Shown in pieces: positions 37,457 to 52,401 of a stretch of DNA of 64,000 bases (its first letter is position 1; each line of letters begins with the position of its first letter). The position numbers and the translations under genes were made by a program. The DNA lies in contig JAKVCY010000005.1 in assembly GCA_022448425.1 (NCBI GenBank), positions 1 to 64,000 on the forward strand. The letters are read 5' to 3'. This stretch comes from Thalassotalea sp. (lineage in GTDB: Bacteria; Pseudomonadota; Gammaproteobacteria; Enterobacterales; Alteromonadaceae). Below the pieces are notes generated by a model. The model worked only from the letters and a program-made list of their open reading frames with translations. It had not been told where the DNA came from and ran no database searches.

Positions 37457-37855
37457 ATGAGAAAGAGACCTTTGACCAAACACTCACTCATCGCAATACT
37501 AGATGATGAACACTCTTTTGCTCAACTTGCACTGGTGACTTTAAAAGAGATTGGATTTCAAAATGTAGTAGCTTTTGAAACTACTGAGCATTTCTGTCAC
37601 TGGCCTGATCTGAAAAACGCAGAAATTATATTTATAGATGTAAATTTGAACGAAATGAACGGACTAACGATATTACCTTGGTTAAAAACTAAAGTTCCTT
37701 CCGCCAGGATTATTATTTTTTCGGGTGACACGAGAAAACAGGTTGTCAGTGAAGCAATAAATTTGGGGGCATGCAGTTTTCTGTCAAAGCTGAATTTAGA
37801 CAAAAACATCAGGGTTTTGTTCAACAAATGGAACGTAAATTATCCGCTGAGTTGA
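37457..37855 (+). CDS. Single-domain response regulator (REC only)
   Basis: The 132-residue receiver shows DDE near the N-terminus, phospho-acceptor Asp61 in IFIDVNLNEMNG, Ser in FSGDTRK and Lys in FLSKLNL. It has no output domain, so it should shuttle phosphate or bind a partner. A close paralogue at 41736 shares FSGDTRK..VSEA.NLGACSFLSK. It lies between the barrel/kinase operon and a hybrid kinase and may connect the kinases of this region. Confidence 0.85.
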   Translation: MRKRPLTKHSLIAILDDEHSFAQLALVTLKEIGFQNVVAFETTEHFCHWPDLKNAEIIFIDVNLNEMNGLTILPWLKTKVPSARIIIFSGDTRKQVVSEAINLGACSFLSKLNLDKNIRVLFNKWNVNYPLS

Positions 37856-38090: not shown

Positions 38091-40127
38091 ATGCAACAGG
38101 GTAAATACAATAAAAATACTGAAATTTCGGCGTTAAAACAAGAACTCGACAACGCGAAGAAAAAAGAAGTTAGATTAAAAACCCTAATCGAATCTGCACC
38201 ACTTTGTATCCATGAAATTAACCATCAAGGACAAATTATCTCCATGAATAAAGCGGGATTGTCGATGATGAATATGGAAAATGAAAACGAGGTATGTGGC
38301 TTAAAATATATTGATTTTGTATGTTCAAAACAACGTCAGCAAATTGATGATTTGTTGAAAAAAGCTTTTCTTGGCGAATCGAGTAACTTTGAGTTCTCTC
38401 CCGACAACTCGCCATTGATATTGAAATCATGCTTCGCACCAATCGTAAATAGTGACGGTTCAATTGAGCGTGTGATGGGCATAACTGAAGATATAACACT
38501 GCAGCGACAATATGAAAAAGAAGTTAGCGCAAGCGAATTCAAATACCGGAGTATTTTTAACAACGCAGATATTTCAATATTGCATGAGGATATGTCTTGT
38601 TTGAAGATATTTCTCGATAACTTAATCCGGGAGGGAGTGACTGACCTTAACACCTTTTTTGAGCAAAATCCCGACAGAATTACAGGTTTATCATCGGAGG
38701 TTAAGTTGTTGAGTATGAATCAAGCGGCTCATCAAATCTTTGACATCACCACAAGTCAATTGCAGTCTGAAGCCTCTGTTCTCATTAACAAGTTATGCGA
38801 TAAAGAAATACTTAAAGAAAAGCTACTTGCAATATGGAATCATCAAGATGTCTATAGAGCCGAAATCAGCTTGAATTTAGCCAAGGATAGAGAAGTTCAT
38901 GCGATAATGGCATTTCGTATACCCAGTGAATTAGATGGATTCGAAGCAGTACCAGTGACTTTTGTCGATGTAACGCAGCAGAAAAGGAATGAAGAAGAGC
39001 TGTTTAAAACCCGAAAACTAGAGTCTATAGGACTGCTTGCAGGCGGCATAGCCCATGACTTTAACAACATTCTAACAGGAATATATGGTCACCTGCAGCT
39101 CGCAGAGAACAAATGGACCAATGATGATTCAGAAGCAAAACGTCACCTCAACACAGCGCACAAATCCATTGATGCGGCGAGGAGACTGACCAATCAGCTG
39201 TTAACCTTCGCCAAAGGTGGCGACCCATTTTTTGAATTACTCGACGTAAGAGAAATAATAGAAGAATGTTCTTCGTTATGTTTAAGTGGAACTAATGTGA
39301 AAAATTCTCTACTGTTAGCTTCACAGCCATGTCAAATCAAGGCTGACAGAGGGCAAATATCTCAGGTATTTACCAACATCATCATCAACGCTGTGCAATC
39401 TATGCCCGCAGGTGGAAAGTTGTCGATTTCGGTGACAAATACTAACGCTCCAATATCAAATATACACCGAATCAGTGACCAGCCGATGGTAAAAATTGAT
39501 ATCACAGACGAGGGTGTTGGTATGAATGGAAAACTGCAGGCACGTGTTTTCGACCCCTATTTTACCACCAAAGAACATGGAACGGGTCTAGGCTTGACCA
39601 CTGCATACAGTATTATAAATAAACACAAAGGATACATTAATATTGAGTCAACTGTTGGCTTGGGTACAACATTCAGCATATTTTTACCCGCAACAACTGA
39701 TATCGGTAATAACAACTGCGATGTTCAAGAATACGTTGACAAAAAAAACAAAAAAAATGCAAAAATAATGATCATGGATGATGAAGAGGTCATCGCCGAC
39801 TTGCTCGAGGAAATGCTCAGTTTATTGGGCCATGAGGTGGTCAAAACACACGATTATTCCAGTGCTCTGTCTCAATATAATGTCGCATTAACAACAGGTA
39901 AACCATTTGATCTCGCTATTATGGACTTAACTATCCCAGGTGGACATGGTGGTGAACAGCTAGTCAAAGAGATATCAAGATTAACACCGGATATCAAGGC
40001 GATAGTAACAAGCGGATATTCGACGGGGAAAGTGATGTCAAATCCAGAAAAATATGGCTTCAACGCGCGACTTGCCAAACCCTTTTCGCTTGATTCGATA
40101 AAAGGTCTATTAAATGAGATTTTGTAG
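38091..40127 (+). CDS. Soluble hybrid histidine kinase with two PAS domains
   Basis: The 678-residue protein has no membrane helix. An N-terminal coiled coil precedes a PAS domain (about 25-150), then a second PAS of the kind with SILHEDMS and VTDLNTFFE (about 155-305). HisKA carries His322 in GGIAHDFNNIL, the ATPase has DEGVGMNG and GTGLGLTTAYS, and the receiver has Asp612 in AIMDLTIPGG. A lysine/asparagine-rich linker precedes the receiver. It probably senses a cytoplasmic cue. The ATG is preceded by AGGAAG. A 347-base gap separates it from a REC-AraC regulator on the same strand. Confidence 0.88.
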   Translation: MQQGKYNKNTEISALKQELDNAKKKEVRLKTLIESAPLCIHEINHQGQIISMNKAGLSMMNMENENEVCGLKYIDFVCSKQRQQIDDLLKKAFLGESSNFEFSPDNSPLILKSCFAPIVNSDGSIERVMGITEDITLQRQYEKEVSASEFKYRSIFNNADISILHEDMSCLKIFLDNLIREGVTDLNTFFEQNPDRITGLSSEVKLLSMNQAAHQIFDITTSQLQSEASVLINKLCDKEILKEKLLAIWNHQDVYRAEISLNLAKDREVHAIMAFRIPSELDGFEAVPVTFVDVTQQKRNEEELFKTRKLESIGLLAGGIAHDFNNILTGIYGHLQLAENKWTNDDSEAKRHLNTAHKSIDAARRLTNQLLTFAKGGDPFFELLDVREIIEECSSLCLSGTNVKNSLLLASQPCQIKADRGQISQVFTNIIINAVQSMPAGGKLSISVTNTNAPISNIHRISDQPMVKIDITDEGVGMNGKLQARVFDPYFTTKEHGTGLGLTTAYSIINKHKGYINIESTVGLGTTFSIFLPATTDIGNNNCDVQEYVDKKNKKNAKIMIMDDEEVIADLLEEMLSLLGHEVVKTHDYSSALSQYNVALTTGKPFDLAIMDLTIPGGHGGEQLVKEISRLTPDIKAIVTSGYSTGKVMSNPEKYGFNARLAKPFSLDSIKGLLNEIL

Positions 40128-40474: not shown

Positions 40475-41311
40475 ATGCGAGACAGGGAAAAAGTTCACGT
40501 TTATAACCAAAGTTATCCAAATTCTATGCCGCGCTCACGTGTAATGATCGTAGAAGATAACGCATTATTGCGACAGCTCATTGTTGAAATATTAGCAGAA
40601 CATTACAGTGTTATCGAAGCAGACAACGGCAAGTGTGCTTTAAACTTGGCAACAGAACATCAACCTAATTTAATAATAACCGATATTTACATGCCTTATT
40701 TAAATGGATTGCAGCTAGTAGAAGCACTTATGGGCAATCAAAAAACACGACGTATCCCGGTAATATTGATCTCAACAGAGGACCAAAAAGTTAAAATAAA
40801 CGAAGGTATGGGACTCGGTGCGATCGACTATATAACCAAACCATTTGATATACATTTTTTACTGCAAAAAGTTCAAAACATCATCAATGTTATATCGTCT
40901 CAGCAAGCTGATACTGATCAAAGTTTGGCGACAAACGGCTATGTTTCACCGTTGCATTTAGCCTTCACTAAAAGAATCAGCCAACAACTCGATAAGCATT
41001 ACCAAGACCCTAATTTTTCAGTGACTGATTTGGCTAAAGCCTTAGCAGCGAGTGAAAGGCAACTTCAGCGAAAATGTAACAACGCATTTGGCTATGGACC
41101 TGCAAAAGCCATTAAGATATATCGTCTAAACCTCGCTAGAGATTATTTAATGTCAGGGCGTTCAGTGACAGCAAGTGCTGAACTCGCAGGATTTTGTACA
41201 CAAAGTTACTTCTCGCGGTGTTTTAAAGAATTTTATGGCATAACACCAAAAGAATACATCAACAGTCCCAGCGACATTAAAACTGAGTTTTTGGCGCCAA
41301 AAGCCGTGTGA
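40475..41311 (+). CDS. REC-AraC response regulator
   Basis: The 278-residue protein has a receiver (about 20-140) with VMIVEDN, the phospho-acceptor in IITDIYMPYLNG and Lys in ITKPFD. An AraC-type double helix-turn-helix follows (about 170-265) with SERQLQRKCN and SYFSRCFKEFYG. It is the only DNA-binding output in the 17-kb signalling region and closely resembles the C-terminal part of the large hybrid kinase at 6632. A likely input is the hybrid kinase just upstream. The ATG has purine-rich sequence upstream but the exact ribosome site is uncertain. Confidence 0.9.
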   Translation: MRDREKVHVYNQSYPNSMPRSRVMIVEDNALLRQLIVEILAEHYSVIEADNGKCALNLATEHQPNLIITDIYMPYLNGLQLVEALMGNQKTRRIPVILISTEDQKVKINEGMGLGAIDYITKPFDIHFLLQKVQNIINVISSQQADTDQSLATNGYVSPLHLAFTKRISQQLDKHYQDPNFSVTDLAKALAASERQLQRKCNNAFGYGPAKAIKIYRLNLARDYLMSGRSVTASAELAGFCTQSYFSRCFKEFYGITPKEYINSPSDIKTEFLAPKAV

Positions 41312-41735
41312 TTTTCTTTCAACATAAAATCAACTTTGCAACATCAATTACACCCAAAGACACGCTATTTGAAACCAAGACTAAACAGCTAAAAACTTTG
41401 GTTGATATGAATTGCTCCTAGTGAAACTTTACCTGAGGATGATTGACTTACAACCCCGAGAAAAACACCCCATCTACATGGATTCGCCAAGCATCAATGT
41501 CAAGCTCAAAAGCGTAGTTTTACATTTCGATTACTTTCCCACGATCAATATTTCGGATTTTTATCACGAGGTCAGGCACTAAAATATTGGTAGCACAACA
41601 AGTATGGAAAGCGAACTGACGTTATATTGTCTTTTTTTTAACTTAGTTTGTCCGAATATGAAACATAAATTAAAGGTTTAATTGATAGACTTTTTCGTAT
41701 TGACATATTTCGCCATACGGCTATCGCTAGTATTT
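41312..41735. other. Intergenic region before the stressosome operon
   Basis: About 370-420 bases, AT-rich, with no supported gene. It should contain the promoter of the stressosome operon, but no convincing boxes are seen. AAAGG at 41673-41677 sits five bases before an alternative TTG start at 41682. Confidence 0.35.
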
Positions 41736-42179
41736 ATGAATGCGCAAACAAACCTCACTAGAGAATCCGGTATTGTTATAATAGATGACGAGCTTTCAAT
41801 GGCCGAATTGGCCTGCGATATTTTGAGAGAGCTCGGCTTTAACAATATAGTTGCATATACATCCTTAAAAAATCTTACCGAAGAAACGAAAATTGCTGAG
41901 GCGCAGCTCATCTTTATCGATATCAACCTGAAGGAGACCAGCGGACTGGTGTTGCTGGCTTGGTTCAAAAATAAATACCCAGATAAACGTGTAGTTATGT
42001 TCTCAGGTGATACCAGAAAAGACCTCGTGAGCGAAGCTAAAAATCTGGGAGCTTGTAGTTTTTTGTCAAAGGTTGAATTACACAAAAATATGAGGCAATT
42101 GTTTACCAAGTGGAAAATCCCAATCCTCTCTCGATGCAACAATATCAAAGAGCAGCCACCAACGGAGACTAACCCTTGA
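41736..42179 (+). CDS. Single-domain response regulator, first gene of the stressosome operon
   Basis: The receiver has VIIDDE, the phospho-acceptor in IFIDINLKETSG, Ser in FSGDTRK and Lys in FLSKVEL. It is a paralogue of the receiver at 37457. The ATG at 41736 gives an N-terminus of the same length as the paralogue. A TTG at 41682 with a better ribosome site would add a hydrophobic 18-residue leader (MIDFFVLTYFAIRLSLVF), so a membrane-tethered form cannot be excluded. It overlaps the REC-EAL gene by four bases, which implies translational coupling. Confidence 0.82.
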   Translation: MNAQTNLTRESGIVIIDDELSMAELACDILRELGFNNIVAYTSLKNLTEETKIAEAQLIFIDINLKETSGLVLLAWFKNKYPDKRVVMFSGDTRKDLVSEAKNLGACSFLSKVELHKNMRQLFTKWKIPILSRCNNIKEQPPTETNP

Positions 42180-43384
42180 ACTTATTATTGATTGATGACG
42201 ACAAAGACTTTTCTTCTTTCTTCTCTGAAGCGGTCTCATCCATTGGTGTTGATTGTCAAGTTATCACAGACCCTACCGCAGTGTTGGATTACAACCTAGC
42301 AAAGACAGACCACATTGTTATCGATCTATCAATGCCAAACCTAGACGGTCTGCAAATTCTTCGCTTTCTCAAGGATAAAGACTTTGCTGGTTATATTTCA
42401 GTGACATCTGGACAGGCAATGCCTCTGTTAGAATCGGCAAAAGAGATCTGTCAACTCCATAGCTTAAATTTTCACACAATTTTAAAAAAACCTTTTGATA
42501 TAAGTTATTTAGATAAACTATTGAATACCCCACAATCCTCATCGTTCAATAGAACTGAGGCAAAAAGAAACAATAAACTGTCCAGTAGACTGGCTACTAA
42601 GTTTAGTAATGCTCTTAAACTCAGAGAAGTCGATGTCTACTTTCAACCCAAAATTAATCTTGAAACATCTGAAATCACTGGACTAGAGGCGCTGGCAAGA
42701 TGGCAAATAGATGGTGGTTTTGTTCCTCCAGAACACTTCATAGCCCTGGCGGAAAGCTTCAATTTAATTGGTCAGTTAACTAATCAGATAGTTGAAAAAA
42801 GCCTCAAGCATTTCACCCATTTTCTAGCAATAAACAAAGAGTTAGGATTGTCGATAAATTTTTCTAGCGTGGAATTACGCCAACAAAATTTGCCCGACTT
42901 TTTATTGGAAAAAGTCACAGAATATGGTCTTTCACCCCATATGATCACATTGGAAATAACCGAGACAGTGCTACTTGAAAAAAATTCAATCTCATTAGAG
43001 ATCCTCGCAAGATTGCGCTTGATGGGATTTCAGCTGTCGATAGATGATTTTGGCTCAGGCTACTCTTCAGTCAATATGTTGCAAAATGGACCATTTACCG
43101 AACTTAAAATTGACAAAGTTTTTATCCAATCGATGCATTCGACGGAAAAGTCAAAAATTATTGTGCAATCTATTGTAGATCTTGCAACAAAACTAGAGCT
43201 AGATATTGTCGCTGAGGGTATTGAAACGAATGAAGATCTCCAAGAAGTCAGGAGAGTGAACTGCCATTACGGGCAAGGTTACTTTTTTAGTAAGCCTATG
43301 AATGCGACACAGATTAAAACGATTATTACCAATTGGAATACCAACTACTCCAACAACAAAGTACTCAATAAGGCCAGACCGTGA
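42176..43384 (+). CDS. REC-EAL response regulator, predicted c-di-GMP phosphodiesterase
   Basis: The 402-residue protein has an N-terminal receiver with LLIDDD and the phospho-acceptor in HIVIDLSMPNLDG. An EAL domain (about 150-390) keeps the catalytic set: GLEALARW (EAL glutamate), INFSS, LEITE, DDFGSGYSS, LKIDK and VAEGIET. It should hydrolyse c-di-GMP under control of phosphorylation. The TTG start at 42176 has GGAG eight bases upstream and overlaps the previous stop. The stop overlaps the RsbR start by four bases. In Vibrio stressosome loci the output regulator is a GGDEF protein; here an EAL protein is upstream instead. Confidence 0.9.
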   Translation: MNLLLIDDDKDFSSFFSEAVSSIGVDCQVITDPTAVLDYNLAKTDHIVIDLSMPNLDGLQILRFLKDKDFAGYISVTSGQAMPLLESAKEICQLHSLNFHTILKKPFDISYLDKLLNTPQSSSFNRTEAKRNNKLSSRLATKFSNALKLREVDVYFQPKINLETSEITGLEALARWQIDGGFVPPEHFIALAESFNLIGQLTNQIVEKSLKHFTHFLAINKELGLSINFSSVELRQQNLPDFLLEKVTEYGLSPHMITLEITETVLLEKNSISLEILARLRLMGFQLSIDDFGSGYSSVNMLQNGPFTELKIDKVFIQSMHSTEKSKIIVQSIVDLATKLELDIVAEGIETNEDLQEVRRVNCHYGQGYFFSKPMNATQIKTIITNWNTNYSNNKVLNKARP

Positions 43385-44208
43385 AAACTTATGAAAAAAT
43401 AAAAACACTGATACACGAGAACAGAGACAATATCATTATTCACTGGGTAACAGCCGTTACCGCTGGCTCGGCTATCGATAAATCGAGAGAAACCGATGAT
43501 TGCTCAGTTCTGCTCGACTTAATATTCAAATGTGTCGAGCTGGGTTACGAAAAGATCGATAAGTCAGAGCAATATTTGCTTCTGGAAAAAGAGCTGCATT
43601 CCTTTGCCTCATTTCGTGCTTTGAATAACTTTACACCCACTCAAACCGCTAACTACCTACTTGAGTTAAAGAGAACGGTGTATACAATTGTCAGCGAAAC
43701 AGCAAGAGAAGTATTAGCGGATGAATTTATAGACTTCAATAATTTTATTGATGATATTGCGGTACTAACGTTTCAAATATTCTCAGATGCTCGAGAAGAA
43801 ATAATAGCCTCACAGGCTTATGCCTTAGAGCACGATACACCTATTGTGAAAATATCACGAAGTATCCTATTGATGCCTCTGATGGGCATCATTGATACAG
43901 CACGAGCACAGAAAATTATTGAGTCTTTACTTGATGCCGTGGTCGAAAATCAAGCCGAGACAGCTATTCTCGATATGACAGCCGTCGCCACGTTTGACAC
44001 GCACGTAGCCAATAATATTCTTAAAACCATCGTGGCAGCAAAAATGGTGGGGACTAAAGTTATTTTGTCAGGGATCAGTCCCAACGCAGCAATGACTATC
44101 GTAAAACTTGGCGTAGATTTGAGCCAAGTTGAAACTTTCAACACATTAGAGAACGCAATCAGTCATGCTCATGAAAGGGATGCAGTGCTCCTTGGAGAAG
44201 CATCTTAA
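43381..44208 (+). CDS. rsbR: RsbR-type stressosome scaffold protein
   Basis: The 275-residue protein has an N-terminal helical sensor domain (about 1-145), starting HENRDNIIIHWV and resembling the RsbRD-type N-terminal family rather than a globin. A STAS domain follows (about 155-265) with SILLMPLMGIID, the conserved FDTHVANNILKTI segment holding the likely phospho-threonine, and ISPNAAMTIVKLG. In Bacillus, RsbR and RsbS build the stressosome that holds the kinase RsbT until stress. Only one RsbR is present, so this sensor domain defines the input. It starts with GTG overlapping the REC-EAL stop. Confidence 0.88.
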   Translation: MKTYEKIKTLIHENRDNIIIHWVTAVTAGSAIDKSRETDDCSVLLDLIFKCVELGYEKIDKSEQYLLLEKELHSFASFRALNNFTPTQTANYLLELKRTVYTIVSETAREVLADEFIDFNNFIDDIAVLTFQIFSDAREEIIASQAYALEHDTPIVKISRSILLMPLMGIIDTARAQKIIESLLDAVVENQAETAILDMTAVATFDTHVANNILKTIVAAKMVGTKVILSGISPNAAMTIVKLGVDLSQVETFNTLENAISHAHERDAVLLGEAS

Positions 44209-44574
44209 ATGAACAAGATCCCCATTTTATATCTAAATTCTATTTTAATAGCATCTATTCAAACAGAGCTGACAGACGAAGAAGTCTTATCATTCCAGTC
44301 AGAATTACTGACAAAAAATAACAATCTTTTGACTAAAGGCGTGATTATAGATGTTTCTACCTTAGATGTCATAGACTCGTATATGGCGAAAGTACTTAGT
44401 GATCTGACCACTATGGTCAAATTGCAAGGAAGCGCTTTTCTGTTGTGTGGAGTCAAACCGGCAGTATCTTCAACGCTCGTCGACATGGGCATGATGTTAA
44501 CTAAAATTGATACCTTTCAATCACTCGAAAAAGCCTTTAATTTTTTAACGTCAAACGATAGGAAATATCAATAG
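44209..44574 (+). CDS. rsbS: RsbS-type STAS stressosome core protein
   Basis: The 121-residue single STAS domain has IIDVSTLDVIDSYMAK, where Ser57 corresponds to the RsbT-phosphorylated serine of Bacillus RsbS (Ser59). GVKPAVSSTLVDMGM matches the family C-terminal half. With RsbR it should form the stressosome core and sequester RsbT. It starts directly after the rsbR stop with no gap, consistent with the fixed RsbR:RsbS stoichiometry expected. Confidence 0.88.
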   Translation: MNKIPILYLNSILIASIQTELTDEEVLSFQSELLTKNNNLLTKGVIIDVSTLDVIDSYMAKVLSDLTTMVKLQGSAFLLCGVKPAVSSTLVDMGMMLTKIDTFQSLEKAFNFLTSNDRKYQ

Positions 44575-44600
44575 TCAACTAGTGAAAATCAATCAGTATC

Positions 44601-45023
44601 ATGGATAAATATTGTCTTAACGAAATTGATAGTGTACCAATAAAATGCACACAAGATATTGTTATATCTAGACAAAAAGGTAGAGAGCTCGCTCGAAAAT
44701 CAGGTTTTTCAGTCAGTGAACAAACCAGGTTTGCCACAGCAATATCTGAAATTACACGAAACGTACTCACCTATGCGACAGAGGGAGACTGTCACCTTTT
44801 CGAAAACAACCTAGACGGGTATCACATGGTTATTGCACAAATCGTCGATCAAGGACCAGGTATAGATAATCCTAAATTAGCGATGAGCGATGGCTATTCG
44901 ACAGGACATGGGCTTGGACTGGGCTTACCCGGTGCAAAAAGGTTGGTTCATGAGTTGAATATCGATTCGACACCAGGAAAAACCATTGTTGAAATAATCA
45001 TTAAACGTAGGGTGTATGGGTAA
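44601..45023 (+). CDS. rsbT: RsbT-type serine/threonine kinase
   Basis: The 140-residue GHKL ATPase has an N-box in ISEITRNVLTYA, G1 in VDQGPGI and the glycine-rich G2 lid GHGLGLGLPGAKRL; this fits RsbT. In Bacillus it phosphorylates RsbR and RsbS, is released, and activates RsbU by binding its N-terminal domain. That binding domain is found here at the start of the hybrid kinase at 45987. The gene lies 26 bases after rsbS and ends directly at the start of a second, shorter ATPase. Confidence 0.9.
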   Translation: MDKYCLNEIDSVPIKCTQDIVISRQKGRELARKSGFSVSEQTRFATAISEITRNVLTYATEGDCHLFENNLDGYHMVIAQIVDQGPGIDNPKLAMSDGYSTGHGLGLGLPGAKRLVHELNIDSTPGKTIVEIIIKRRVYG

Positions 45024-45428
45024 ATGCTTCCCCTAACAACGGCTATTAATATTAAAAAAGAATGGCATATAGCAAAAGCAAGAGGTGATACTAAAAAGCT
45101 AATGATATCTGTCGGTTGCAGCACTATATGTTTAACTGAGGTAGTTACATGTGTTTCTGAACTTGCATATAACCTCTTCTTTCATACCCAAGAGGGGGGG
45201 GTTATTGAGATGTCTATTATAGACCCTGATGGCGTATTAGGGATAAAGATTACGAGTCATGATAATGGACCAGGCATCAAATCTGTCACTGATGCGCTCG
45301 AAGATGGTTTCTCGACAAATGGTGGACTGGGAGGTGGGCTACCGGGTGTAAAACGACTGATGGACGATTTTCAAATTTTTAGCTCAGAAGCTGGTACATC
45401 AATAACTTGCGTTAAGTGGTGTACCTAA
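45024..45428 (+). CDS. Second RsbT-like GHKL ATPase
   Basis: The 134-residue protein has the same fold as the preceding RsbT: an N-box-like segment in CVSELAYNLFFH, G1 in DNGPGI and a lid GGLGGGLPGVKRLM. In the N-box an Asn is retained (LAYN) but the family TRN pattern is lost. Most stressosome operons carry one RsbT. A second could phosphorylate another target or tune RsbT. It also resembles the small ATPase often found beside RsbX in proteobacterial clusters. It begins directly after the rsbT stop, and its TAA overlaps the ATG of the phosphatase gene. Confidence 0.8.
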   Translation: MLPLTTAINIKKEWHIAKARGDTKKLMISVGCSTICLTEVVTCVSELAYNLFFHTQEGGVIEMSIIDPDGVLGIKITSHDNGPGIKSVTDALEDGFSTNGGLGGGLPGVKRLMDDFQIFSSEAGTSITCVKWCT

Positions 45429-45994
45429 TGCCTCTTTATCAAGGAAAAAAAAATGGGGAACTCGAGAGTGGCGACAGATGTATTATTCAAAGGCGCTCAG
45501 ACAGTGTGCTTTATGTGATGATAGATGCGGTAGGTCATGGAGTGATAGCCAACAAGATAGCAGATATTGCGCAAAATATTATCCAAAATTCAGAGAGAGA
45601 ATCTCTTCCTAACTTAATTGCCGCTTGTGAAGTCGAACTCATTAACACTCGAGGTGCGGTGATATTTTTTGCCCAATTTTATCCCAAATCTGGCAAGTTA
45701 CACTATTACGGGGTTGGCAATATTCGATGCTACGTATTATCTCGCTTTTACTCTCGTTCGCTGCCATCTTCCCCCGGCATTTTGGGTAGGCCTGCACAGA
45801 AATACGACATACAAAAAGTAAAAATTGAAACCCCTACCTCTTTATTGATGTTTACAGATGGACTTCCCGAAATAAAGACACAAATATTACCTCAATTGTG
45901 CAAAATGACACCAAGACATATCGTTGGATTTCTCTCTGAGTCATGGTCAGAAACTGATGATGTGTGTTGTTTTTGTGAGTACATGTATGAATAA
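45428..45994 (+). CDS. rsbX: RsbX-type PP2C/SpoIIE phosphatase
   Basis: The protein has 188 residues from the ATG at 45428, which shares TAATG with the previous stop. PP2C-family metal-binding motifs are visible: GDRC at the start, MIDAVGHG (Asp/Gly/His), LLMFTDGLPE and SETDDVCCFC (final Asp pair). In Bacillus RsbX dephosphorylates RsbS and RsbR, resetting the stressosome. The short length without an extra N-terminal domain supports RsbX rather than RsbU. The 3' end overlaps the start of the RsbU-like hybrid kinase by eight bases. Confidence 0.87.
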   Translation: MPLYQGKKNGELESGDRCIIQRRSDSVLYVMIDAVGHGVIANKIADIAQNIIQNSERESLPNLIAACEVELINTRGAVIFFAQFYPKSGKLHYYGVGNIRCYVLSRFYSRSLPSSPGILGRPAQKYDIQKVKIETPTSLLMFTDGLPEIKTQILPQLCKMTPRHIVGFLSESWSETDDVCCFCEYMYE

Positions 45995-47825
45995 ATACTT
46001 AGATAGATACAAAGAAGAATATAGCAGTCGTATAGTCGCGTATGTAACCAATGGCGGAGAAGAAGTTTTATATCTGTGCTCAGAACTCGGTAAACAATTG
46101 GCAATAGAAAACTGCTCAATTGAGGATGTTATTGCCTTTCATCAATCCTGCCTAGAAACACTGACAATTTCACCAAACACATTAAATACACAGGAACTGA
46201 TTAAATCTTTTGATTTGCTCACTGAAATTACTGTTCAGCAAACTCTCTGGTTAAAGCGAGAAACCTCCCTAAAAAATCAAGCTAAACGTATGATTCGAGA
46301 TGTCATTGAGGCAATGCCACTACGAATTTATTGGAAAGATATAAAAGGGCGTTACTTGGGGTGTAACAGTGCGTATCTGCGCGATATAGGTATAAACTCA
46401 AGTGACATTATTGTCGGCAAATGTTCACAGCATGTCGACCTTAAAAACCTCAACATTGATATCGATACGACTACAGAGTCTGATATTCTTGCAGGAAAAT
46501 TGCTTTCACATATTAGTGAAAGGGAAGTAACTATAGCTGGTAATATTACACTGCCAATAAAACAAACGATAAGACCATTGATTAATTCGGACCAAGAGCT
46601 GTATGGCCTCATTTGTTGCTATGAAAATTTAGCCGAATTGAAAGAAAAAGAAGAAGAAAATAAGATACTGACCGATAATCTGAGTCAAAGTCAACGTGTC
46701 GAATCTATCGGGCGCTTAGCCGGAGGAATAGCCCATGACTACAATAATATGCTAGCCGTTATCATAGGGTATTCCCAACTACTTGAACGAGGATTGCAAT
46801 CAAGTGAGCTTTCTCCAAAGTTCTTGAGTTACTTAAAACATGTATTATCGGCCGCTGATAAGTCTAAGCTACTCACCGAAAAACTGCTCACTTTCAGTCG
46901 CAAAGACATCGTCAAACCAGCATTAGTTGAACTCGGACTCCATATAACAAACACTCTCACTACTTACTCATCAATCATTGACGAGGATATCATCATCTCT
47001 TTGGATGCTGCTGATAAGTATTGGGTTTTTGCCGACCCCAGTCATATAGATCAAGTTTTACTCAACCTCGTCGTCAATGCACGGGATGCGATGCTCAACA
47101 CTAACACCTCAACACAGAAAAAAATTGATATTATCTTGCGAAATAGTCATTTATCTAATTTTGTATCTTTGAGTATTGAAGACAATGGTTGTGGAATGAC
47201 TGAAGAGACTAAATTACATATATTCGAGCCTTTTTTCACTACAAAAAAATGTATCGGAACAGGGCTTGGTCTGGCAACGGTTTTTACCCTTATTTCTCAG
47301 TATGGAGGGAGTATTAATGTGAACATAGACAAAGAAGTTGGCACTGAATTCATCATTGAATGGCCTTTACATCAAGGAAAAATCCCAAAGGATCATGAGG
47401 AATTTTTGGTCGATTCAACAGGTCATCAAAAATCCTATCCACATAGTTCAAGCAAAAATATTGTTGTGCTTGAAGATGATAGCCAAGTGAGAAATCTATT
47501 AGTTTCAGTGTTAACAACCGCGGGGTTTAAAGTCTTTGGTTATGAAAGTAGCGATGCTATGTTCGATGAAATTACTAAAAAGGACCTGGTAGTCGATTTA
47601 CTTTTGACAGATATCATATTGTCTGAAAAAAGAAATGGTAAAGAAGTTAGTGATCAGTTATTGATGCAATACCCTTTATGTCAGGTAGTTTTTGTTTCAG
47701 GATACAGTGACGATATAATCAGTGAAAGAGGAATTATTTTGGACAATGTTACACATATACAGAAACCGTTTAGCAATGCTGAACTCGTTGATATAGTGAC
47801 AGATACACTGTTGCAATCCGTATGA
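45987..47825 (+). CDS. Hybrid histidine kinase with an RsbU-type N-terminal domain
   Basis: The protein has 612 residues from the ATG at 45987. Residues about 5-90 match the RsbT-binding N-terminal domain of RsbU in layout: RYKEEYSSRIVAYVT, EEVLYLCSELGKQLAIE, SIEDVIAFHQSCLE, SFDLLTEI. Then a PAS domain (about 100-215), HisKA with His250 in GGIAHDYNNML, an ATPase (DNGCGMTE, GTGLGLATVF) and a receiver with Asp542 in LLTDIIL. Instead of the PP2C phosphatase of RsbU, the binding domain drives a kinase. Released RsbT should therefore switch a phosphorelay. It overlaps rsbX by eight bases and is the last tightly coupled gene. Confidence 0.88.
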   Translation: MNKYLDRYKEEYSSRIVAYVTNGGEEVLYLCSELGKQLAIENCSIEDVIAFHQSCLETLTISPNTLNTQELIKSFDLLTEITVQQTLWLKRETSLKNQAKRMIRDVIEAMPLRIYWKDIKGRYLGCNSAYLRDIGINSSDIIVGKCSQHVDLKNLNIDIDTTTESDILAGKLLSHISEREVTIAGNITLPIKQTIRPLINSDQELYGLICCYENLAELKEKEEENKILTDNLSQSQRVESIGRLAGGIAHDYNNMLAVIIGYSQLLERGLQSSELSPKFLSYLKHVLSAADKSKLLTEKLLTFSRKDIVKPALVELGLHITNTLTTYSSIIDEDIIISLDAADKYWVFADPSHIDQVLLNLVVNARDAMLNTNTSTQKKIDIILRNSHLSNFVSLSIEDNGCGMTEETKLHIFEPFFTTKKCIGTGLGLATVFTLISQYGGSINVNIDKEVGTEFIIEWPLHQGKIPKDHEEFLVDSTGHQKSYPHSSSKNIVVLEDDSQVRNLLVSVLTTAGFKVFGYESSDAMFDEITKKDLVVDLLLTDIILSEKRNGKEVSDQLLMQYPLCQVVFVSGYSDDIISERGIILDNVTHIQKPFSNAELVDIVTDTLLQSV

Positions 47826-47948: not shown

Positions 47949-50288
47949 ATGATAAGAAAAAGGCTCAATGATAAAAAGCTTTCACACGTTATTTCACTCG
48001 CCAAGACATTATGCAATACCCAGTTTGTTTATCTTCATCTTATCGATGAACTCGATGAGTGTGAAGTGTTACCCTCTTATCAAACTATTGAACATGAACG
48101 CGGGCTCGAAATTAACAACTTAAGATCCGAAGAGCGCTATAAACACTCAAGCTTTCTGCAACAGCACCCCAATCTGAACTACTATTTTGGTATACACCTC
48201 AAAACGTCAGATAATAAGACTATCGCCAGTATTTGTGTATACAAAGAACATGAGGAAAGATTAACACAATCACAGCAAGCTTCTTTATCTAACCTTGCTG
48301 AATTGGCTTCTGACTTGATAGAAGGCAAACTTTCTAGTAGCAGTTATATTGAACAAATATCAGTGCGCGATAAAAAGTTAGTACAACTTTTTGAACAGGC
48401 TAAAGATCCTCTAATGACACTAGAGCCACCAAACTGGTGCTTTACCTCGGGTAACCCAGCAGCACTTAAATTGTTTAAGGTAGAATCAGAGCAACATTTT
48501 ACTCAACTTGGACCCTGGATTTTATCACCACAATACCAACCAGATGGCACATTATCTAAAGAAAAAGCAAAAGCTGTCGTACAGGAGGCATTAAAAAAAG
48601 GTAGTTGTTCCTTTGAATGGTTGCATCAATCGCTCGATGGAGAAGAGATCCCATGTAATGTATTTTTAAATCGAATTATAGAAGGGAATAAAAGATATCT
48701 TCATGCAACGGTCAAAGATATTTCAGAGAGGAAATCTTTAGAAAGTAACTTAACTAATCAACTAGCGATTAACCGAGGGATACTCAACTCAACAAGCGAA
48801 GGGATACTGCTTGTTGATCATGACTCGAGAAAAATCCAATCATACAACGACCAATTTTTATCTATGCTGAAAATACCACAAGCCTTGGTCGACACAAATG
48901 ATGATGGTAAAATTGTTAGCCATATTCTCAAACAACTAGACAACTCTGCTACGTTTATAGATACCGTAGAGTACCTCTACCAAAATCCACACCAAGAGAG
49001 TCAAGATACTTTAATATTCAAGGATGATAGAGTCATTGAGAGATATTCCACCCCTTTTATTTGTGCAGGCATAATCAAAGGTCGGATTTGGTTTTATCGT
49101 GATGTCACTGAAATAAGAGCAATGGAAAAATTGGTCAATCAAAGTTCTAGGCTCGCAGCCATCGGCCAACTCGCCGCAGGTATTGGACACGAAATCAATA
49201 ACCCATTAACGATAATAGAAGGACATATCTCCAAAATGACTAGGCAAAATAAGTCAATATCAGCTGATATTTTGGAAAGCCTAGATATTATAAATAAAGC
49301 AAGTGAACGTATTAAGAATATAACATCAGGGCTTCGCAGCTTTGCTCATATTGAGAAGAATACAGCTATTGAGCGCTTTAACTTGTACTCACTCTTGTTT
49401 GAAATAGAAAACATGCTCAAGGGGATTTATTCGAATGATCGCATCTGTTTAGAATTTGATTATTCACAATTAAATAAAGCTGCAACAATAGAGGGAGAAA
49501 GAGGAAAGTTTGAGCAAATATTAATCAACCTAATATCTAACGCCAAAGACAGTACGGAGGATATGACATTAAGAGTTATAAACTTAGTAATAAAAAGTGA
49601 AATTCAAAATGGATGTGGTCATATCATTGTGTCGATTCTTGACAACGGTGTAGGAGTACCAAAAGAAATTAAAGATAAGATTTTTGATCCCTTTTTCACA
49701 ACTAAAGAGGTAGGAAAAGGCACAGGTATCGGCTTATCTTTGGTGTACCGATTCGTGACAGATGAATTCAATGGAAGAATCTCATTGAGTAAATCAGGGC
49801 TCGGTGATGGGAGTCGTTTTGATATTTCAGTGCCCGCCTATTGCGAATCGCCTGTAGACCTTGATGAGCCTTTGCAGGACCAAACTCAAAAGTTAACTAT
49901 TCGAAATGAGACTCTTTGTGTCATCTTAGTAGATGATGAGTTAACTATCAGGGAATTACTCCGCGATATATTGGAAGTGGCAGGCTTTAGTGTAATTTGT
50001 TGCGAAAATGGGGTGGAAGCGCTACACAAATACTTGGAGGATCCAGATGCCATTGATTTGATTATCTCTGATGTTAAGATGCCACACATGGATGGACCTA
50101 CCTTACTAAGCGAAGTCAGGGGGAAAACGAGTTTAAAGCAACCTAAGTTTTTCTTCATCACTGGCGGCATTGACATTGACTTTGCAAATACCTGCGACAT
50201 CTGGATAGACACAATTGATGGGTATTTTTACAAGCCTTTTAGTTTTTCTGACGTTTTGGAAAAAATAAAAAAATCGTTTAAAAAATAA
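47949..50288 (+). CDS. Soluble GAF/PAS hybrid histidine kinase
   Basis: The 779-residue protein begins with a GAF-like domain (about 1-135), followed by two PAS domains (about 140-265 and 270-395). HisKA has His414 in GIGHEINNP, the ATPase has DNGVGVPKE and GTGIGLSLVYR, and a C-terminal receiver has Asp708 in IISDVKMPHMDG. There is no membrane helix. It follows the stressosome operon by 123 bases on the same strand and may be co-transcribed. The receivers at 41736 and 42176 and the REC-AraC protein are possible phosphate acceptors. Confidence 0.88.
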   Translation: MIRKRLNDKKLSHVISLAKTLCNTQFVYLHLIDELDECEVLPSYQTIEHERGLEINNLRSEERYKHSSFLQQHPNLNYYFGIHLKTSDNKTIASICVYKEHEERLTQSQQASLSNLAELASDLIEGKLSSSSYIEQISVRDKKLVQLFEQAKDPLMTLEPPNWCFTSGNPAALKLFKVESEQHFTQLGPWILSPQYQPDGTLSKEKAKAVVQEALKKGSCSFEWLHQSLDGEEIPCNVFLNRIIEGNKRYLHATVKDISERKSLESNLTNQLAINRGILNSTSEGILLVDHDSRKIQSYNDQFLSMLKIPQALVDTNDDGKIVSHILKQLDNSATFIDTVEYLYQNPHQESQDTLIFKDDRVIERYSTPFICAGIIKGRIWFYRDVTEIRAMEKLVNQSSRLAAIGQLAAGIGHEINNPLTIIEGHISKMTRQNKSISADILESLDIINKASERIKNITSGLRSFAHIEKNTAIERFNLYSLLFEIENMLKGIYSNDRICLEFDYSQLNKAATIEGERGKFEQILINLISNAKDSTEDMTLRVINLVIKSEIQNGCGHIIVSILDNGVGVPKEIKDKIFDPFFTTKEVGKGTGIGLSLVYRFVTDEFNGRISLSKSGLGDGSRFDISVPAYCESPVDLDEPLQDQTQKLTIRNETLCVILVDDELTIRELLRDILEVAGFSVICCENGVEALHKYLEDPDAIDLIISDVKMPHMDGPTLLSEVRGKTSLKQPKFFFITGGIDIDFANTCDIWIDTIDGYFYKPFSFSDVLEKIKKSFKK

Positions 50289-50678: not shown

Positions 50679-51731
50679 TTATTGCACAGTTTGGTGTGTT
50701 ATTAATTCATAATGTAGTGGCATAGTGATTTTGTTATACGGTGACAAATGCATCTTCGGTAATTCAAAACAGGTATCAATAAACTGGCCTATATCTTTAG
50801 CCTTATACTCATTGATAGGCTTATCAACCATGACTTCACACCAAACCGCATAACGGCGGTGGTAATCTTTTTGCATTTTATCGGTAAGCTTATCTTTGGT
50901 AATTTTATGCGCTAAGAATTCGGCATAGACCTCGGAGAATAGCGATGCCGTTGATTCTGGCTCTGATGGGGTGGTATCGACTTGAACGACTTTCGGAGCA
51001 TTAGCTAAAAGGGTTTGAGTTTCACGCTCGGTTAATGCGTCACCTTCAAATATCGATTGCATTAATTCACGTTGTACCTTGAACGATGTGGTTAATTTAC
51101 TGACCAACATTCGAAACGCCAATGATGAAGTATCGGTTTCAAATCCTTTATTTAACAGTAGTTGTCTTGCCAGCTCATGTGTACCAGCATTGTCAACTTC
51201 ATCAGTTAAGCCAACCAACATTTTAACCATAGAAGACAAAGCTTCCATAAAAGGCCACTTGTCTTCTTCAAACAAACCACCAATAACTTCGTTAAGGCGT
51301 GCGGTGCGGGTATTGTTATCTGAGGCTTGAGCTATGTAGGAAAGCTGCTCTTTAAATTGGTTGTCATCACTAAGCAACTCGGTTTGCCCAAGTACATTTA
51401 ATGCATGAGCACCGTTTGAATACCCTTGCTCCATTTCAGCAATTAAGACATCAATATCACCTACTTGTAATTGCTTTAGCATAGCGTCCTTTATCATTAG
51501 TAACCGTGGTTTAACCTCACTAGTGTCTAACGATTTAGAACTGATAACAAGTTGTTTTAGTTCCTGAATACATGGCTTAAATTGCTCAACACGTTTAGCG
51601 GCTGAAATGAGGTTTTGTGTCTGTAGACCGAAGCGCACTTCCCTAACACCTAACCGTTTAGGTAGTCTCATTCGAAAATAAAACCACTGTTTGCGAAGGT
51701 ATAAGTATTTATTACCAGCTACAGCTTTCAC
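50679..51731 (-). pseudogene. Tyrosine integrase, truncated before the catalytic domain
   Basis: The 350-residue ORF begins like integrases with a DUF6538-type N-terminus: YLYLRKQWFYFRMRLPKRL followed by long helices. It continues through a SAM-like core-binding segment (SEVYAEFLAHKITKDKLT, HRRYAVWCEVMVDKPINEY). It then ends in unrelated-looking sequence after MHLSPYNKIT near 50735. The catalytic domain with the R-H-R-Y residues is missing, so it cannot recombine DNA. The break marks a deletion junction around 50700-50735. It lies next to paired 29-bp repeats and rnpB, as expected for the end of a genomic island. Confidence 0.8.
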
Positions 51732-51752
51732 GTTATATGGTTGAGTAGGCCA

Positions 51753-51781
51753 CCGTGTATCAAACCGTGTACCACTTTTTG
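51753..51781. repeat. 29-bp direct repeat, copy 1 (integrase att/arm site candidate)
   Basis: Two 12-bp units, CCGTGTATCAAA and CCGTGTACCACT, followed by TTTTG. It lies 22 bases upstream of the integrase start and matches copy 2 at 26 of 29 positions. Confidence 0.65.
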
Positions 51782-51887
51782 TCGCTCAAAGTTAAAAATA
51801 CAAAATAATCTTATCAGGCAAAAACTCTAGCCAAAACAAAAATGAGGATGATTTTTAAAAAGAAACAAATAAAGTTGAAAATCAAAA

Positions 51888-51916
51888 CCGTGTACCAATC
51901 CGTGTACCAATTTTTG
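51888..51916. repeat. 29-bp direct repeat, copy 2 (integrase att/arm site candidate)
   Basis: Two exact 12-bp units CCGTGTACCAAT followed by TTTTG, 135 bases from copy 1 and about 40 bases from the rnpB terminator hairpin. Confidence 0.65.
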
Positions 51917-51952
51917 AATTTAATGATATGAAATACTAGAGATTTTAGATAA

Positions 51953-51983
51953 CCGCTTGTCTAACATAGAGAAAAACAAGCGG
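51953..51983 (-). terminator. Terminator of rnpB
   Basis: CCGCTTGT (51953-51960) pairs with ACAAGCGG (51976-51983) around a 15-base loop, just beyond the mature 3' end of the RNase P RNA. The T-tract is weak. Confidence 0.6.
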
Positions 51984-51995
51984 CTTCTAAAATTT

Positions 51996-52389
<394 letters not shown>

Positions 52390-52395
52390 GCGCGC

Positions 52396-52401
52396 ATTCT
52401 A
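52396..52401 (-). promoter_or_regulatory. -10 box of rnpB
   Basis: On the minus strand TAGAAT lies six bases before the predicted 5' end, followed by a GC-rich discriminator GCGCGCC of the type seen in stable-RNA promoters. The -35 region is not clear. Confidence 0.5.

Follow-up and report, generated by a model that had tools for sequence, protein, structure and literature searches.

A putative stressosome operon of Thalassotalea sp. with an RsbU_N hybrid histidine kinase as its proposed output

Within a 64,000-nt window of Thalassotalea sp. (positions 1-64,000 of the forward strand of contig JAKVCY010000005.1, assembly GCA_022448425.1), eight genes running in one direction from 41736 to 47825 were found to encode, in order, a stand-alone receiver (REC), a REC-EAL protein, RsbR, RsbS, RsbT, a second RsbT/SpoIIAB-like ATPase (here termed T2), RsbX and a hybrid histidine kinase with an N-terminal RsbU_N domain. 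Judged by its gene content, the operon is a putative Gram-negative stressosome, for which assembly into a megadalton particle is predicted, and its output is probably a two-component phosphorelay. The operon is real and well conserved, and the mechanism proposed for it is plausible. All eight genes, their order and their overlaps or short gaps were as described in an earlier reading of the window made from the DNA letters alone (the sequence-only reading): neighbouring genes abut or share 1-8 bases, the exception being a 26-base gap 5' of rsbT. That gene list had omitted one member of the conserved module, a REC-AraC response regulator gene at 40475-41311. All of these genes lie on the forward (+) strand.

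Results

The hybrid kinase and its RsbU_N domain

The kinase (45987-47825) comprised RsbU_N (residues 11-82), HisKA (242-307), HATPase_c (350-462) and REC (492-604) domains. The N-terminal match to Pfam RsbU_N (PF08673) had an E-value of 2.1e-8 and, at 34.6 bits, cleared the cut-off of 25.5, bearing out the sequence-only reading on this point; it was the only such match found in the assembly, which is 93% complete. HisKA carried the phospho-acceptor H250 and REC the acceptor D542, as determined by Pfam and motif scans. The same reading had RsbU_N standing in place of a phosphatase output, and indeed HisKA-HATPase_c-REC was found by Pfam where RsbU has its C-terminal PP2C domain. Between RsbU_N and HisKA lay a helical linker, followed by a stretch that is PAS-like by sequence, with no Pfam match.

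When a profile was built from 13 kinase N-termini (without Bacillus), its best matches in the PDB were four entries of RsbU from B. subtilis, with E-values between 1.3e-17 and 2.8e-16; the match that followed them stood at 0.058. The same entries still led after the Lysinibacillus RsbU was added to the profile. A search of PDB sequences with the single kinase N-terminus gave no match, although the profile search did. On these comparisons, the RsbU_N assignment is sound. The RsbU residues reported to contact RsbT, namely E24, Y28, I74, I78 and R91 (PMC12143880, cited from part of its text), corresponded to E25, Y29, T79, V83 and K96 of the kinase in alignments that were read by eye. The E24 equivalent was invariant in all 14 RsbU_N rows, which share only 14-23% identity outside two close relatives.

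The predicted model of residues 1-105 (predicted local distance difference test score, pLDDT, 80.5) was entirely helical, with helices at 3-6, 9-22, 25-41, 45-61 and 68-104, the last continuing unbroken into the linker; the prediction for the longer stretch 1-244 was of low quality (mean pLDDT 47.0). In one of two structure comparisons of the shorter model, the first row was 3zta, with a Z-score of 10.0 against a trusted level of about 13 for helical bundles, and RsbU entries were absent among the best 50 matches listed. The entry 3zta belongs to the Moorella stressosome paper. No structural conclusion is drawn from either comparison.

The stressosome core and its co-occurrence with RsbU_N

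RsbR (43381-44208, GTG start) carried an RsbRD_N sensor domain (1.1e-8) and a STAS domain (1.1e-13), with no Protoglobin match in Pfam, and its best PDB matches were stressosome RsbR structures (3.1e-25). RsbS (44209-44574) matched STAS at 1.1e-10. Both STAS proteins have candidate phosphosites, T207 and T239 by motif in RsbR and S57 in RsbS; S57 was invariant in 11 of 11 aligned RsbS proteins. RsbX (45428-45994; SpoIIE 2.6e-9) is a predicted PP2C-type feedback phosphatase.

RsbT (44601-45023; HATPase_c 7.8e-9) is the predicted switch kinase and RsbU_N partner. It retained the equivalents of the N-box Glu and Asn and of the Asp (E45, N49 and D78) expected of an RsbT ATPase, together with both arginines equivalent to the RsbU contacts R19 and R23. 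The latter pair was kept in all 14 RsbT proteins from genomes with RsbU_N, two of which come from one genome and three from close relatives. A search of the PDB with RsbT alone returned one weak, unrelated match and nothing else.

Among 369 gammaproteobacterial genomes, RsbS was present in nine at E ≤ 1.5e-37 (next match 9.0e-20) and RsbU_N in eight. RsbU_N was found in seven of the nine genomes with RsbS and in one of the 360 without (Fisher p = 1.6e-12, for genomes that are not independent and for two scans that drew on the same genomes, with their full lists uncompared). The seven include G553, whose RsbU_N is on a different contig from RsbS. The RsbS genomes without RsbU_N were G604, in which an RsbT-like domain is fused to a kinase instead, and G410, where the contig ends after RsbX; RsbU_N without RsbS occurred in G492, adjoining a short RsbX piece.

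All eight of these RsbU_N proteins were histidine kinases, each with HATPase_c over its cut-off; five had HisKA (the window and loci L032, L033, L036 and L037) and three HisKA_3 (L034, under its cut-off, L035 and L038). According to the text and figure legends available to us, Heinz et al. (2022; PMC9237108) describe, for some alpha-, beta- and gammaproteobacteria, proteins encoded downstream of RsbX whose N-terminus is an RsbU_N-like domain; they list phosphorelays and c-di-GMP (cyclic di-GMP) among stressosome outputs and name EAL, REC, HisKA and HPT in a domain-figure legend. Citing that work, Baral et al. (2025; PMC12143880, in part) likewise describe RsbU_N histidine kinases and model one with AlphaFold, an NreB-like kinase from a gammaproteobacterium. 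Rarity of the fusion is therefore not supported, and the link between RsbU_N and kinases in stressosome operons is already published. The sequence-only reading had regarded it as uncommon, its central novelty, and that part did not stand, whereas its interpretation of a stressosome operon with an RsbU_N kinase and a REC-EAL protein did. The present locus is a well-preserved further example.

In a phylum sample of 398 genomes, RsbU_N was found in 10, nine of them over the cut-off. A part of the proteins of these loci was run through Pfam, and open reading frames in GC-rich loci were read as stop-to-stop frames. Among the proteins so scanned, RsbU_N was joined, besides kinases, to GGDEF (L046) and HD_5 (L041, L042 and L043). 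The HD_5 (HD-GYP-like) fusions (L041:7125-8252, L042:8151-9287, L043:8817-10325) have as neighbours an ATPase of the RsbT/T2 type and another RsbU_N protein; neither RsbR nor RsbS was found in the stretch read. At L046:6717-9394, RsbU_N-GGDEF and RsbU_N-PAS-kinase-REC proteins follow one stressosome in tandem, and one switch may drive two outputs. Stressosome genes and an RsbU_N kinase also occurred within chemotaxis-type clusters (L031:320-9738 and L036:588-13990) that hold CheA-like kinases and a methyl-accepting chemotaxis protein (MCP) signalling protein, with CheB in L036. A possible RsbU_N ahead of an MCP signalling domain (L048:671-2212) scored 18.9 bits, below the cut-off.

The second ATPase

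T2 (45024-45428; HATPase_c_2 1.3e-9) also carried the ATPase motifs, and its best PDB match was the anti-sigma factor SpoIIAB (2.9e-5). At the two arginine positions the window protein has R and K. Both RsbU-contact arginines were kept in 16 of 17 RsbT proteins and in two of 11 T2 proteins, counts that include three close relatives and, among RsbT, genome G553 twice. Five ATPases counted in neither group retained both: the lone proteins of L041-L043 and the kinase-fused ones of L053 and L085. As determined with our own profiles, T2 was present in six of nine gammaproteobacterial stressosome genomes (the window genome, G465, G320, G542, G410 and G604) and was not found in G376, G532 or G553. 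In G604 and on a Salipiger plasmid, the ATPase that follows RsbT and the phosphatase RsbX form a single fused protein.

The arginine pattern, taken together with these fusions, suggests that RsbT is likelier than T2 to be the partner of the RsbU_N kinase and that T2 goes with RsbX. An RsbW-like role for T2 may also be considered because its best structural match is an anti-sigma factor; there was no sigma-factor gene beside T2, and the operon lacks genes resembling RsbV or SigB, a search for sigma factors that did not extend to other parts of the genome. In the RsbT/T2 tree, the window T2 grouped with those of L005, L006, L046, L084, L031 and L036 (support 0.95).

A separate observation concerned a route, other than RsbU_N, by which stressosome loci join the switch to a kinase. 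In G604 (L085:9426-11597) and on the Salipiger plasmid NZ_CP014597.1 (L053:7382-8518), a histidine kinase carries an RsbT-like ATPase domain fused directly at its N-terminus.

Receivers and the upstream element

The stand-alone REC (41736-42179; Response_reg 4.9e-16), REC-EAL (42176-43384, TTG start; EAL 3.9e-63, Response_reg 1.4e-9) and REC-AraC (Response_reg 3.8e-25, HTH_18 1.6e-20) are the proposed outputs, the last of them transcriptional. The receivers hold the usual Asp, Ser/Thr and Lys residues by motif scan. The EAL gene that the sequence-only reading had noted upstream is present in the same operon with its metal-binding and catalytic motifs, and REC-EAL is a predicted c-di-GMP phosphodiesterase; its best NCBIfam match was PvrR, at 230.6 bits under a cut-off of 580. 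Outside the operon, the stand-alone receiver at 37457-37855, upstream of another hybrid kinase gene, resembled the operon REC (4e-48 with our own profile) and is likely to be a duplicate.

Between REC-AraC and REC, an ungapped 30-mer (41627-41656, + strand) was common to three genomes, those of the window, T. eurytherma and a Litorilituus relative, with 19 of its 30 columns identical in all. None of 40 shuffled sets reached 19 (maximum 16), although a T run within the element is a caveat. The element can be read as two TTGTC-like half-sites that flank the T run at a spacing of 21 bp, and lies 102-109 nt from the REC start codon across the three genomes (109 nt in the window). The pattern derived from it occurred once in the genome when up to two mismatches were allowed; a general promoter scan showed no excess of sites (27 versus 24.6 expected). 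For regulators of the AraC type, binding to repeats with a spacing of about 21 bp is common. The element may serve the operon as its promoter or operator.

Conservation and mobility of the locus

The same order, from REC-AraC through to the kinase, was found in T. eurytherma (L006) and in a Litorilituus metagenome-assembled genome (L005), where the contig ends inside the kinase. REC-AraC homologues occupied the same place with 69% and 44% identity, respectively. Gene identities between the window and T. eurytherma were 69-93%. The corresponding ratios of nonsynonymous to synonymous substitution (dN/dS) were about 0.04-0.17 by gene and 0.05 for RsbU_N, rough values from a counts method with dS of 0.65-1.91; most dS values against L005 were saturated.

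The conserved block of T. eurytherma holds REC-AraC, REC, REC-EAL and, as its sole kinase, the RsbU_N kinase. Two hybrid kinase genes flank the operon in the window (38091-40127 and 47949-50288, each with HisKA, HATPase_c and REC by Pfam). Neither is present at the T. eurytherma locus, nor are the further flanking two-component genes of the window, including the REC at 37457-37855, and both kinases were therefore rejected as members of the core module. The T. eurytherma locus does keep a 217-base stretch that matches the 3' end of the 38091 gene, which was thus probably once part of it. In T. eurytherma, a small kinase-like gene and a regulator-like gene lie about 3 kb further downstream (L006 13808-15497; open reading frames read by eye).

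RsbU_N was found in four of 295 genomes of the family, the window genome included; one of these, G208, was over the cut-off in the family search and under it, at 23.8 bits, in another scan. Among seven genomes of the genus, the kinase was found at E 1e-80 in the window genome only, and RsbS was found in one of 40 relatives, the window genome itself. In the sibling species G105, the flanks aligned at 11.6-19.9 kb of the window and from 52.0 kb onward; nothing in the 19.9-52.0 kb region aligned to the G105 stretch between the same flanks. A recombinase-like gene (50679-51731; DUF6538/DUF3258) lies at the edge of this differing region, and a shorter homologue borders the T. eurytherma operon. The edge at 51028-52401 matched T. 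eurytherma at 89.5%, compared with 79.5% for the operon. The pattern of flanks, recombinase-like gene and identities fits a horizontally moved region and is not proof of one. Querying plasmids with the full-length kinase brought up 2440 records, every one at less than 60% identity.

Discussion

By analogy with B. subtilis, RsbR and RsbS would form a sensing scaffold that holds RsbT. Upon stress, RsbT would phosphorylate S57 of RsbS and T207 and T239 of RsbR and then be released. Once free, RsbT is proposed to dock on the N-terminal part of the kinase, where RsbU_N forms a dimer and continues into the helical linker, and to change kinase activity, which would alter the phosphorylation of REC, REC-EAL and the upstream REC-AraC. 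These receivers would in turn change c-di-GMP breakdown and transcription, which may include that of their own operon by way of the 41627 element, and RsbX, perhaps with T2, would reset the scaffold.

Several observations count against this proposal. The Y28 equivalent was kept in just four of the 14 RsbU_N rows (three Alteromonadaceae and Lysinibacillus), and T79 of the kinase departs from I74 of RsbU. The Foldseek comparison of the 1-105 model speaks neither for nor against an RsbU fold: RsbU structures were listed at E-values of 0.78-2.4 with template modelling (TM) scores of 0.48-0.49 by model length, and there was no match of any kind below 0.001. No HPt domain was found by Pfam in the operon or in the kinase, and the eight HPt matches elsewhere in the genome were all on other contigs, one of them within a short frame of 132 amino acids; transfer from the kinase's own receiver to a separate receiver would therefore need an outside HPt, or the HisKA histidine would have to serve the receivers directly. 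The tree placed the T2 proteins of L032 and L033 apart from the window T2 on poorly supported branches, and did the same with those of L085 and L053 that are fused to RsbX, so that their equivalence rests on gene position. In V. vulnificus, no positive interaction was obtained between RsbT and VvD1, which lacks RsbU_N, according to the available text of Heinz et al. (PMC9237108). Finally, the two flanking hybrid kinases of the window genome could serve the same receivers.

The low identity among the RsbU_N rows and the sparse retention of Y28 would suit a domain that serves for dimerisation only, with RsbT acting not at all or by transient phosphorylation, a route put forward by Heinz et al. 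where the kinase lacks RsbU_N (PMC9237108, in part). Such a role is improbable given the invariant E24 equivalent and the co-occurrence of RsbS with RsbU_N. The receivers might instead be served mainly by the 38091 or 47949 kinase, with the RsbU_N kinase as one input among several or acting elsewhere. Both neighbours have the domains for it, and the remnant in T. eurytherma indicates that one of them, the 38091 gene, probably once belonged to the locus there; that species has nevertheless kept all three receiver proteins and the RsbU_N kinase with neither neighbour, which makes this arrangement unlikely. It is similarly very doubtful that T2 takes the place of RsbT at RsbU_N. T2 has the ATPase motifs, and the ATPases that adjoin RsbU_N proteins in L041-L043, where no RsbR or RsbS was found in the stretch read, have both arginines. 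Most T2 proteins lack the complete pair, however, Salipiger and G604 have RsbX fused with the ATPase that occupies the T2 position, and RsbU_N kinases occur with RsbT in three loci where T2 was not found (L034, L038 and L045).

Signalling from RsbT through the RsbU_N kinase to the receivers thus remains the favoured account. A more elaborate version is tentative and, as a whole, rather doubtful: the stressosome would have two switch kinases, RsbT driving the kinase output while T2, with one arginine lost, and RsbX act as a kinase-phosphatase pair that resets or tunes the scaffold, and the output would split between c-di-GMP breakdown by REC-EAL and transcription by REC-AraC, which would also act back on the operon at the 21-bp repeat (41627).

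How Gram-negative stressosomes without SigB pass on their signal is a standing question, and the case of V. vulnificus is one without RsbU_N. The present operon is compact, combines an RsbU_N-bearing kinase with the expected phosphosites and two candidate outputs, and is convenient for examining the proposed step from RsbT to the kinase. The analysis adds to the published picture the REC-AraC gene as a member of the module, the retention of this module in two further Alteromonadaceae, the conserved element at 41627-41656, the T2-RsbX fusions and the arginine loss in T2. A T2 component beside RsbX is absent from the consulted parts of the Heinz and Baral accounts (PMC9237108, PMC12143880). In a literature search with limited subscription coverage, in which Heinz et al. 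was available as text and figure legend, no mention was found of T2, this operon or the REC-AraC/REC-EAL arrangement, and no report linked T. eurytherma with a stressosome.

Compared with the RsbRST-RsbU-SigB system of B. subtilis, the locus shares RsbR, RsbS, RsbT, RsbX and RsbU_N as the RsbT docking domain, but its RsbU_N carries no PP2C domain, and genes resembling RsbV or SigB are missing from the operon. In Moorella thermoacetica, an RsbU_N-GAF-GGDEF protein likewise couples a stressosome to c-di-GMP (Quin et al. 2012, as cited in the available text of PMC12143880 and PMC4976288); in that system the cyclase itself bears RsbU_N, whereas here a predicted phosphodiesterase would be linked through a kinase and a receiver. 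As in V. vulnificus, where VvD1/VvD2 genes adjoin rsbRSTX, two-component output genes lie next to the stressosome genes, although Heinz et al. detected no RsbU_N in the proteins encoded downstream in that species (PMC9237108, in part). Since the RsbR has RsbRD_N and no Protoglobin match, the locus falls outside the Protoglobin-STAS survey of the same authors. The closest likeness is to the proteobacterial rsbRSTX loci with RsbU_N kinases (PMC9237108 and PMC12143880, each as far as available), in which the kinase directly follows the stressosome genes and the same RsbT route is proposed; the Thalassotalea operon differs from these in having REC, REC-EAL and REC-AraC upstream and a second ATPase before RsbX.

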